Assembly (NCBI GenBank): GCA_900018345.1
Contig: FCNA01000098.1
Coordinates: 1 to 64,000, forward strand
DNA: 64,000 nt
Source of the DNA: Clostridiales bacterium CHKCI006
GTDB taxonomy: Bacteria > Bacillota_I > Bacilli_A > Erysipelotrichales > Coprobacillaceae
Reading direction: 5' to 3'
Of this stretch, positions 5,415-28,507 are shown piece after piece. Position numbers and translations under genes: made by a program. Position 1 is the first letter of the stretch. Each line of letters opens with the position of its first letter. Under the pieces are notes generated by a model. That model had not been told where the DNA came from, did no database searches, and saw only the letters and a list, made by a program, of their open reading frames with translations.

Positions 5415-6809
5415 ATGGAAAAAAAACCAGTCAAAATTGTAACTATTGGTGGAGGTAGTTCTTATACTCCAGAGTTAATGGAAGGTTTTATTAAACGTTA
5501 CGAAGAACTCCCTATCAAAGAAATCTGGCTTGTAGACATCGAAGATGGCAGAGAAAAGCTGGAAATCGTTGGAGCAATGGCACAGCGTATGTGGGATGCC
5601 ACTCCTTATGGTGTTAAAGTTCATTTAACTTTAGATCGTCGTGAAGCACTCCCAGGTGCCGATTTCGTTACGACACAGTTCCGTGTTGGTTTATTAGATG
5701 CACGTATCAAGGACGAAAGAATTCCTTTCTCTCATGGTATGTTAGGTCAGGAGACGAATGGTGCAGGCGGTATGTTCAAAGCTTTCCGTACGATCCCAGT
5801 TATCCTTGACATTGTTAAAGATATGAAAGAATTATGCCCAGATGCTTGGCTGATTAACTTCACAAACCCATCTGGAATGGTTACTGAAGCAGTTATCAAA
5901 CATGGTGGATGGAAGAAATGTATCGGTTTATGTAACGTACCAGTAGGTGCTTTATTAAGCGAACCTCCTATGTTCGGTTTAACAGAAAGAGAATGTATCC
6001 ATCGTTTCGCTGGTTTGAACCACTTCCACTGGCATAAAGTGACAGATAACCAGGGCAATGACTTAACAGATAAGATCATTGATAATATGTATAAAGATGT
6101 CGATGATGGTACACCTGCCAATATCCATGACGTTAAATTCTTAAAAGACCACATGAAACAGATTCAGCTGATTCCTTGTGGATATCATAGATATTACTAC
6201 ATGCATGATGAAATGCTGAAACATGGTTTAGAAGAATTCAATACGATTGGTACACGTGCTCAGCAGGTTAAACAGACAGAAGCTGAACTCTTCGAGTTAT
6301 ATAAAGACCCTAAATTAAACTATAAACCTGAACAATTAACAAAACGTGGTGGTACACATTACAGTGATGCTGCTTGTGAATGTATCAGTTCTATCTACAA
6401 TGATAAGAGAAGACATATGGTTGTCAGCACACAGAACAATGGTGCTATCGCTGATTTACCTTATGACTGCATCGTTGAAATCTCTTCTATCATTGGTGGT
6501 GATGGTGCAATGCCATTAACTTGGGGTAAATTCAATCCTTCTGAAAGAGGATGGGTACAATTAATGAAAGCAATGGAGGAATGTGTTATCGAAGCTGCCA
6601 TCACAGGTAACTATGGCTTAGCTTTAGCTGCTTTCGAAATGAACCCACAGGTTGAACATGGTCAGGTTGCTCAGACTGTTTTAGATGAATTATTAGTTGC
6701 ACATAAGAAATACTTACCACAGTTTGCTGACAAGATTGCTGAATTAGAGGCAAAAGGTGTTGCCAGCAAGGATCCAGTTGTCATGGATTTAATGGTAAAT
6801 GGTCATTAA
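5415..6809 (+). CDS. 6-phospho-beta-glucosidase, glycoside hydrolase family 4
   Basis: A 464-residue NAD+- and metal-dependent hydrolase of the CelF/LicH type, which cleaves 6-phospho-beta-glucosides by a redox-elimination mechanism. The N-terminal dinucleotide-binding motif is IVTIGGGSSYTPEL. The metal ligands are C173 (GLCNVPVG) and H203 (LNHFHW), and NFTNPSG matches the family. The length is normal. A strong GGAGG precedes the ATG. It duplicates the activity class of the GH1 enzyme by an unrelated chemistry, and the module lacks a permease, so uptake must be encoded elsewhere. Codon choice is unusually uniform (many TTA, GGT and CGT), which suggests high expression. Confidence 0.93.
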   Translation: MEKKPVKIVTIGGGSSYTPELMEGFIKRYEELPIKEIWLVDIEDGREKLEIVGAMAQRMWDATPYGVKVHLTLDRREALPGADFVTTQFRVGLLDARIKDERIPFSHGMLGQETNGAGGMFKAFRTIPVILDIVKDMKELCPDAWLINFTNPSGMVTEAVIKHGGWKKCIGLCNVPVGALLSEPPMFGLTERECIHRFAGLNHFHWHKVTDNQGNDLTDKIIDNMYKDVDDGTPANIHDVKFLKDHMKQIQLIPCGYHRYYYMHDEMLKHGLEEFNTIGTRAQQVKQTEAELFELYKDPKLNYKPEQLTKRGGTHYSDAACECISSIYNDKRRHMVVSTQNNGAIADLPYDCIVEISSIIGGDGAMPLTWGKFNPSERGWVQLMKAMEECVIEAAITGNYGLALAAFEMNPQVEHGQVAQTVLDELLVAHKKYLPQFADKIAELEAKGVASKDPVVMDLMVNGH

Positions 6810-25749: not shown

Positions 25750-26019
25750 GTGCCTTGTTATGTCTATATGTTGCGCTGTCAGGATGGATCCTTGTACACT
25801 GGCTGGACAAATGCGCTGGAAAAAAGGGTAGCGGCGCATCAGTCTGGTAAGGGTGCCAGGTACACTCGGGCGCATCGACCGGTTGCATTGGTCTATGTAG
25901 AGACATTCGATACAAAAAAGAAGGCGATGCAGCGGGAATATCAGCTCAAACAATTGACGAAAGCACAAAAAGAGGCCCTGGTAAGTACTTATGAAGCAAA
26001 AAAGACAAATCTTGTTTAA
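25750..26019 (+). CDS. GIY-YIG domain protein (YazA/UPF0213 family)
   Basis: An 89-residue protein covering the GIY-YIG nuclease fold: YVYMLRCQDGSLYTGWTN, then GKGARYTRAHRPVALVYVE and REYQLKQLTKAQKEALV. GTG at 25750 is chosen because AAAGGAGG is eight bases upstream and the family starts just before the YVYML strand. The molecular role of this family is not settled. The end overlaps the VanZ gene by 29 bases. Confidence 0.88.
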   Translation: MPCYVYMLRCQDGSLYTGWTNALEKRVAAHQSGKGARYTRAHRPVALVYVETFDTKKKAMQREYQLKQLTKAQKEALVSTYEAKKTNLV

Positions 26020-26380
26020 TTTTCTAGCTATGTTGATCTGGATGGCTGTGATTTTTTCTTTTTCTCAGCAAAATGGGGAGTCCTCACAGTCTTTGAGTAA
26101 TCACCTGTTGGCTTTGTTGGGACTGGAAGGGGAGATGGCAAGTTTCATCTTACGCAAATTAGCGCATTGGACAGAGTACTTGATCTTAGCTTTTCTAACA
26201 GCCCGCTTTGTGAAAAGCGCTGGCCTATTACCACGCTGGATCCTGATCTGGGTCATCATGTTTGCCTTTTTAGATGAATTTCACCAGTCTTTTATTGCCG
26301 GGCGAGTCGCTTCGTTATGGGATGTCGGTGTTGATACTTTTGGGGGATTGGTCGGTTACTGGCTTTTTTCTAAAAAATAA
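25991..26380 (+). CDS. VanZ-like membrane protein
   Basis: A 129-residue protein with three to four membrane helices and the VanZ signatures IFSFSQQNGESSQ, RKLAHWTEYLIL and DEFHQSFIAGRVASLWDVGVDTFGG. VanZ-like proteins are common in Firmicutes, and most are unrelated to vancomycin clusters; some give low-level teicoplanin tolerance. The start lies inside the upstream gene with only a weak ribosome site. Confidence 0.87.
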   Translation: MKQKRQILFNFLAMLIWMAVIFSFSQQNGESSQSLSNHLLALLGLEGEMASFILRKLAHWTEYLILAFLTARFVKSAGLLPRWILIWVIMFAFLDEFHQSFIAGRVASLWDVGVDTFGGLVGYWLFSKK

Positions 26381-26426
26381 AGTGTAACAGCAGCTTTTTA
26401 GGGATAATAGAGTAGGAGGTGATTGG

Positions 26427-28049
26427 ATGCACTGGTATCCGCTTTATCTGACTCAAGATCCCCAAAAAACTGCTTTTTGTTGTTTGCAATCCGTCTTAGC
26501 TCATCATCGGTATCGTCATGACTGGCGCTGGATGCTTAAAGATATCGGTGAGCATGCGTGGGGACTGGATGGGTTACTACATCTTTTGACGCTTTATGGC
26601 ATAGACTATACCGCTTTTTCATCTATAGAAGAAGCGTTAGCGCATCGCTGTTTCCCCATCATTGCTAACTTAGGTGATCATTTTGTTTTAGTGATGCGAT
26701 CTGGGACCAAAGCGGTCTACCTGATGGATCCGCTTAGAGGGTATCGCAAAATGAGCCTCTCTTCATGGAAGGAAAAAGCAATCTGGCAATGCTTGAGCAT
26801 TGGCTTTATTGGACGCTATCCCTATCATCACCAATCGTTATGGCCGTTATGTTTGCGTCAGCCACGTTTTCTCATTTCATTTTTTCTATATCTAATAGGG
26901 ACGATGGGCTATTATCTGGTTCTTTTTCACTTTCACCTTACGCAAACTATCTGGCTGGATCTGGGCCGGGGAGTGGAGAACGCTGCTTTTTTATGGGTGA
27001 CGGCCCAAGGCTTATTTGAGCTGATGACTCAGTGGCAGGAACGCTGGCCGTCGATCCGTCCATACCCAATCAAACAGATCATCAGACAGAACCTCTCATT
27101 TGTGGCACAATTACTCTGGGGTCTCTGGCTTATAGAAAGCTTGGTGAGAGCGGGACGCAGTGCTTTGATGGCAATGCTTTACGGGCTTCTTTTAGCAGGC
27201 TTGTCACATTATCTTTGGCATCGCTGGCAGCCGGCGGATCGCCATTGTCTGGAGTCATCTTCTTTCTGGAATTATTTAGGTGGATTGGGGCTGGTGCTCA
27301 GCATCCATCTTGGCTTGGTGATTGGATACTTTGGCTGGACGTCTTCCTGGATAGAGACGCAAGCCTTGTTATATATTGGACTGACAGGATTAGGCTGGCA
27401 CTGGATTTCTATTGGTTTTCATCTCGCTTGCACACAACTTGCCGATTGGCAGTATTGGCTAGAGACGAAGAAAAAAGAAGCGCCACTGGAATCACTGGAA
27501 GAAATTCGTTTTTATCAGGCGACAAAGCTCATCTCCATGTCTGTTTCAGGCGGTTTTTCCAGTGATCACTACTTATTGCCTTTGATGATGTTAGGAAAAG
27601 GAATGCCATCGCCTGAATGGCAGGTTTATATCAATGGTCATCGTGCGGATACATATTCGATGTCAGATTATCATTGTATCATTCGTTATTTTGATCACTT
27701 CTGTCTAGACGAATCAGAGTCTTTGCGGGATTATCTGGGAGAGGCTGGTGTGAAGCTGGCCTGGCAATATCAATTGCTGAAAGAAGAGCTGCTCATTAAT
27801 TTGCAGTTGCCCTTTTTATCTTTTGAAGCTAAAGAACTCGCAGGTTTTATCCATCAGTATTTAGCTGATGGAAAACTGATGATCTGTGTGCATTGTTTAG
27901 ATCATTTGCAAGCGGATAGTTTGGAAAAGGTCATCCGCCTGATTCAGGAGCAGAATGAACGGTGGGTCATTCTGGTCAATCCTCAAATAAAATTAGTGAA
28001 TCCCTCGTTCGAATATGCTATAATGGGGCATGAAGAAGGAGGATCTTGA
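26427..28049 (+). CDS. Degenerate peptidase-containing ABC exporter-like protein (C39-like + membrane + dead NBD)
   Basis: A 540-residue protein with three parts. Residues 1-125 read as a C39 peptidase domain: the His (H85 in HFVLV) and Asp (D101 in MDPLRG) regions are kept, but the catalytic Cys position appears to be T15 in DPQKTAFCCLQSVL. Residues about 148-340 form roughly six membrane helices. Residues about 365-540 follow an ABC nucleotide-binding domain in outline: a YINGH strand; a Q-loop-like region; LSFEA in place of LSGGQ; and LMICVHCLDHLQADSLEKVI in place of the Walker B/D-loop. The Walker A lysine is absent (SGGFSSDHYL). The frame is intact with a good GGAGGTGAT site, so it is not decaying DNA. 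The substrate is unknown. The domain assignments are by eye. Confidence 0.7.
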   Translation: MHWYPLYLTQDPQKTAFCCLQSVLAHHRYRHDWRWMLKDIGEHAWGLDGLLHLLTLYGIDYTAFSSIEEALAHRCFPIIANLGDHFVLVMRSGTKAVYLMDPLRGYRKMSLSSWKEKAIWQCLSIGFIGRYPYHHQSLWPLCLRQPRFLISFFLYLIGTMGYYLVLFHFHLTQTIWLDLGRGVENAAFLWVTAQGLFELMTQWQERWPSIRPYPIKQIIRQNLSFVAQLLWGLWLIESLVRAGRSALMAMLYGLLLAGLSHYLWHRWQPADRHCLESSSFWNYLGGLGLVLSIHLGLVIGYFGWTSSWIETQALLYIGLTGLGWHWISIGFHLACTQLADWQYWLETKKKEAPLESLEEIRFYQATKLISMSVSGGFSSDHYLLPLMMLGKGMPSPEWQVYINGHRADTYSMSDYHCIIRYFDHFCLDESESLRDYLGEAGVKLAWQYQLLKEELLINLQLPFLSFEAKELAGFIHQYLADGKLMICVHCLDHLQADSLEKVIRLIQEQNERWVILVNPQIKLVNPSFEYAIMGHEEGGS

Positions 28050-28507
28050 TGGAAATATCTTTTGCGTTTGTCAATCAGACGGACACTGATTTGACTGAAT
28101 ATGAAACGCTTTTTTCGCAAATCATTGAAACCGCACTAACCATTTTACATATTGATGATGATGTTGAACTATCCTGTATCATTGTAGATAATAATGCCAT
28201 TTGGCAAATCAATCGGGATTATCGACAGATCGACCGACCAACAGATGTGATCAGCTTTGCCTTGGAAGATCAGCCGGACGTTTTGCCTGAAGGCATGCCG
28301 CGGGAGCTGGGAGATATCTTTATTTCGTTAGAAAAAGCAAGCGAACAGGCAGAGAGCTATGGTCATTCTTTTCATAGAGAATTCTGTTTTCTGTTCACAC
28401 ATGGACTTCTTCACCTTTTAGGATATGATCATATGGAAAAACAAGAGGCAGAGGTTATGTTCGGTTTGCAGGAGGAGATCTTAAATGCCCAAAAAATTAC
28501 CCGATAA
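28049..28507 (+). CDS. ybeY: Endoribonuclease YbeY
   Basis: A 152-residue metal-dependent RNase for 16S rRNA 3'-end maturation and ribosome quality control. The zinc signature HGLLHLLGYDH (H-x3-H-x5-H) is complete. The ATG at 28049 overlaps the upstream stop by one base (TGATG) with AAGGAGG before it. It heads the ybeY-dgkA-cdd-era-recO block conserved in Bacilli. Confidence 0.95.
   Translation: MEISFAFVNQTDTDLTEYETLFSQIIETALTILHIDDDVELSCIIVDNNAIWQINRDYRQIDRPTDVISFALEDQPDVLPEGMPRELGDIFISLEKASEQAESYGHSFHREFCFLFTHGLLHLLGYDHMEKQEAEVMFGLQEEILNAQKITR

Follow-up and report, generated by a model that had tools for sequence, protein, structure and literature searches.

The stretch of DNA analysed here (the window) comprises 64,000 nucleotides of a contig of Clostridiales bacterium CHKCI006. 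Directly upstream of ybeY it carries a gene resembling those of peptidase-containing ABC exporters (PCATs), whose product has lost the catalytic motifs of both the protease and the ATPase. The question raised by this locus is what keeps the reading frame of such a gene open.

Layout and motifs of the gene

An earlier note, made from the sequence alone, had reported an open frame of 540 codons with a strong ribosome site, and both were confirmed on the forward strand. The ribosome site ends 3 bases ahead of the start codon. No ABC gene adjoins the PCAT gene among the open reading frames of the window. The locus contains the following features:

26414..26423 (+), ribosome-binding site AGGAGGTGAT, a strong match to the 16S 3′ end (sequence)
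26427..28049 (+), PCAT orthologue of 540 aa in an open frame, predicted to be catalytically dead (ORF, Pfam, family profile, positional orthology)
26427..26837 (+), C39-like region, aa 1-137, with Thr15 for the catalytic Cys and Thr9 for the oxyanion Gln; His85 and Asp101 kept (Pfam, family profile, column alignment)
26847..27476 (+), putative membrane region, about aa 141-350, shortened (profile, hydrophobicity)
27627..28031 (+), C-terminal part of the NBD, aa 401-535, with the Walker A region deleted and a normal coding signal (family profile, coding signal)
27816..27830 (+), LSFEA in place of the ABC signature, which reads LSxGQ in the orthologues (sequence, orthologue comparison)
27888..27893 (+), Val488-His489 where the orthologues have the Walker B Asp-Glu (column alignment)
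28047..28051 (+), TGATG overlap of the PCAT stop and the ybeY start, with the ybeY ribosome site inside the end of the PCAT gene (sequence)
28049..28507 (+), ybeY, which marks the conserved slot; cdd, era and recO come after it (ORF list, synteny)

The sole Pfam match in the protein is PF03412 (Peptidase_C39), which scores 34.9 bits where the cut-off is 22. A family profile was built from full-length orthologues with intact motifs, and shuffled copies served as the control. It has two separate matches, to residues 1-137 and to the NBD at about residues 401-535, with scores that the shuffled copies came nowhere near. The membrane region gave no match to the TMD profile; it contains three strong hydrophobic segments, and about five to six at a looser cut-off. 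The earlier note had drawn the outline of a PCAT with a C39 domain, about six helices and an NBD. The two end domains of this outline are supported by the profile, and the membrane region is unrecognisable by sequence. The order C39-TMD-NBD is therefore given by homology at both ends, and we infer the middle. When the whole protein and its C39 part were modelled from the single sequence, the pLDDT values were 40 and 43, too low for the models to be informative.

Column alignment with the orthologues agreed with the earlier reading of the motifs, namely the replacement of the peptidase Cys by Thr with the His and Asp kept, and an NBD without Walker A, with LSFEA as its signature and without the Walker B Asp-Glu. 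The H-loop His is gone as well, being replaced by Pro519, and the profile alignment places a deletion at the Walker A stretch. As judged by these alignments, the catalytic Cys, Walker A, the signature, Walker B and the H-loop are all lost. The protein is about 135 residues shorter than its orthologues, the loss being in frame, and its Trp content is 4.6%, compared with 0.3% in the intact orthologues.

It is extremely improbable that the gene is an intact exporter disguised by an assembly error or a frameshift. Over the membrane region, frame 3 has a long open stretch, and one weak tblastn match (E 0.01) falls within it. However, the TMD profile scored no better on the other frames than on shuffled controls, and the frameshift was rejected on this basis. 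Furthermore, the motifs of both end domains carry in-frame substitutions, and the coding signal favours frame 1 in the TMD and the NBD, with frames 1 and 2 about equal in the C39 part.

Conservation of the locus in the family

The bacterial family was sampled with 43 genomes from 20 genera. Throughout the family a gene for a PCAT of about 675 aa immediately precedes ybeY, and cdd, era and recO come next. On the basis of this synteny, the window gene is the positional orthologue of the ybeY-linked PCAT. The earlier note had left open whether orthologues in related genomes share the substitutions. The motifs are intact in every readable orthologue from the other genera, with the single exception of genome G024, whose copy also appears dead; for partial orthologues at the end of a contig this refers to the part that is covered, and the state of the PCAT is not readable in genome G001, from whose assembly ybeY is absent. 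Alignments of the intact orthologues with PCAT1 and ComA extend over the full length. The nearest named family of these orthologues is NCBIfam NF045998 (Mbov_0121 family), to which they score well below the cut-off. In the rest of the order, PCATs of full length were compared by sequence alone; they are scattered and, at about 720 aa, longer, and none of those seen came close to the family type.

In genome G007 two ORFs make up the PCAT, one for the C39 domain (186 aa) and one for the TMD and NBD (493 aa), with 8 bases in common (L020:4651-6132 and 6125-6685, reverse strand). The division of the gene may be real, or it may come from a frameshift or from the assembly.

Scans of contigs with the dead PCAT protein and with RecO returned no close relative. 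The possibility that the window gene is a recent wreck was rejected: its divergence is deep, the intact orthologues belong to other genera, and a second dead copy with an open frame exists.

Selection for an open frame

The terminal branch of the window PCAT has a length of 3.7 amino acid substitutions per site, which is near saturation, compared with 0.56 for housekeeping genes on the species tree. The ratio of PCAT to housekeeping branch length is 6.7 for the window copy, and the median of the other copies is 1.9. Relative to housekeeping genes, the window copy has diverged about three times faster than the intact ones. For dN/dS, estimated by NG86 against other genera, dS is saturated. Neutral evolution was simulated from an intact gene at 0.3 substitutions per site, our conservative estimate for the unconstrained part, taken from the fall in identity to the orthologues from about 33% to 20%. 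The simulation produced about 17 stops, and none of the 200 replicates stayed open. The window gene has no stop and has lost its approximately 135 residues in frame, so the open frame is not due to chance. The absence of stops shows that the frame is under selection, as the earlier note had supposed.

The selection could in principle act on the frame alone. The gene would then be a decaying relic with no function of its own, kept open by translational coupling to the operon of ybeY and era and free to accumulate missense changes. We regard this as doubtful, though with a sizeable share of the probability. The TGATG overlap with ybeY is consistent with it, as is the loss of the catalytic motifs of both domains except the His and Asp of C39. 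The coding signal, measured in stretches of 140 codons, has eroded in the C39 and membrane parts to below all 95 sampled stretches of the neighbouring genes and is normal only in the NBD part, which lies next to ybeY. On the other hand, ybeY has a strong ribosome site of its own, and Bacillota generally show little translational polarity. The amino acid composition of the protein is unlike that of a randomly drifting frame, and a useless part could simply have been deleted. Two observations speak against selection for the protein itself: the weak coding signal of the C39 and membrane parts, and the non-catalytic invariant residues of the C39 part, of which 9 of 18 are kept, roughly the number expected after uniform drift to the divergence observed.

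The VanZ-family gene next to the PCAT gene (25991-26380, forward strand) resembles it in having a high Trp content (4.7%) and a weak coding signal.

An independent loss in another genus

The second copy with degenerate motifs is found in G024, which belongs to a genus other than that of the window. It encodes 644 aa in an open frame (L091:1074-3008). The catalytic Cys is replaced by Ser, the His is missing and the Asp is replaced by Ser. In its NBD, GKGM stands for GKST, LSSHE for the signature and DR for DE, and the H-loop His is missing. The PCAT of a congener, G015, is intact. The window and G024 copies are far apart on a tree of five housekeeping proteins, which indicates that the losses were independent. 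Among invariant residues, the G024 copy has kept 22 of the 25 that are non-catalytic but only 6 of the 14 that are catalytic (Fisher p 0.004). Judged by its residues, this is the pattern of a pseudoenzyme with a retained fold.

The stop codon of the G024 gene lies 77 bp before ybeY. An overlap with ybeY cannot account for the open frame there, which is a point against the relic. It is mostly for this reason that we favour, with moderate confidence, the explanation that the window gene is the leftover of an exporter, now a non-catalytic pseudo-exporter, which is kept in frame for the sake of its protein rather than of the operon.

Probable cargo of the exporter

A search for double-glycine leaders yielded three homologous peptides of 52-54 aa from three genera, all encoded in one slot upstream of radC-mreC. 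A profile of the three found a match at E below 1e-14 in 40 of the 43 genomes. The peptide gene is located between valS and radC wherever its flanks were readable; in the 30 loci examined, one or both of these genes adjoin it. The consensus is about M-K/N-EL...GG-hydrophobic stretch-YK..S..GRISIP..I..EW, for which Pfam and NCBIfam gave no confident match. Four of the genes for this peptide of about 53 aa are:

L161:1495-1656 (-), double-glycine peptide
L154:1498-1659 (-), double-glycine peptide
L156:1501-1656 (+), double-glycine peptide
L193:3065-3247 (-), double-glycine peptide

The genome of the window has valS, a gene for a SPOR-domain protein and radC in the usual order. The position of the peptide is taken by a gap of about 115 bp in which a peptide ORF is absent, and the profile search found the family peptide nowhere else in this genome. 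The double-glycine leader model TIGR01847 also gave no match there, and a wholly different cargo is possible. In the assemblies of G024 and G009 both valS and radC are missing, so the absence of the peptide from them carries no information, and cargo loss refers to the window's genome only. The PCAT and the peptide occur together in 39 genomes and have been lost together in one (Fisher p 0.025). This co-occurrence, the leader motif and the co-loss make the peptide the likely cargo of the PCAT in the family. Since the peptide is absent from a slot that is itself present, and no other intact PCAT is encoded in the genome, exporter and cargo have been lost together in the window's genome. The loss of the cargo gene is also what would be expected of a relic.

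The earlier note had considered the protein as a regulatory subunit or scaffold for a separate active exporter, or as a receptor for leader peptides. The first role finds no partner, as the genome encodes no other C39 exporter, although other, unlinked ABC exporters are present. The second would lack its likely ligand, the conserved cargo being missing from its slot. A subunit that binds double-glycine leaders and works with an active exporter in the manner of the HlyB C39-like domain would agree with the retention of His85 and Asp101, together with several residues that are structural in the C39 fold, and non-catalytic C39-like domains do recruit substrate in HlyB (PMC6363468). However, domains of the HlyB type sit on active NBDs, and the window's genome has no leader for such a subunit to bind, as far as the leader model can detect. 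We consider this explanation very unlikely.

Fate of the window copy and comparison with known systems

The favoured explanation is a maintained pseudo-exporter. Its ancestor is the PCAT that the whole family keeps directly upstream of ybeY, which in the relatives most likely cuts and exports the double-glycine peptide. In the window lineage the peptide gene was lost and, as read from its sequence, the exporter lost its cysteine-protease and ATPase activities. The copy shrank and diverged fast, its frame staying open by selection. Its product is most probably translated and anchored in the membrane, where it may serve in structure or in binding, independently of ATP and of cleavage. More generally, PCATs of the family may have been converted at least twice independently into maintained pseudo-exporters, membrane proteins dead as protease and as ATPase, with a structural or signalling role after loss of the cargo; this is a tentative proposal, to which we give somewhat less than an even chance.

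Exporters with one dead part are known, but we know of none in which the protease and ATPase motifs are both gone and the frame is kept, and this combination was not found in the open-licence papers searched. The window gene shares with PCATs of the PCAT1 and ComA type an orthologous locus, an N-terminal C39 and a C-terminal NBD. It differs from them in lacking the protease Cys and the NBD motifs, in its length and in the absence of a cargo from the genome. Degenerate-site ABC exporters such as TM287/288, TAP and CFTR have likewise lost the Walker B Glu and signature residues. However, one canonical site is preserved in them (PMC7756269), in most cases on a partner, whereas in the window protein all motifs are gone and no partner is apparent. 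A C39 fold without the catalytic Cys is also found in HlyB-type exporters with a C39-like domain (CLD), but HlyB combines it with a working ATPase (PMC6363468) and a membrane domain, and exports RTX proteins. Loss-of-function alleles of pneumococcal BlpA are another natural case in which one lineage has lost a PCAT that is still present in its relatives. In BlpA the loss arose through recent frameshifts and stops (PMC12150690), in contrast to the window gene, which is open after deep divergence.

The comparison exposes a family-wide exporter together with its likely cargo, a strongly conserved peptide whose role can now be tested. The window lineage, in which exporter function and peptide are both lost, constitutes a natural knockout.

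Some variation was observed among the peptide genes. They are present in two to four copies in G007, G022, G028 and G032. In G004 (L194:2926-3165, reverse strand) the leader ends in G-E instead of G-G, and the PCAT motifs of this genome are intact. The conservation of the C-terminus, GRISIPxxIxxEW, seems stronger than would be expected of a typical bacteriocin. The valS-radC slot of G002 contains two more, different double-glycine peptides of 39 and 48 aa (L192:3117-3536, reverse strand).
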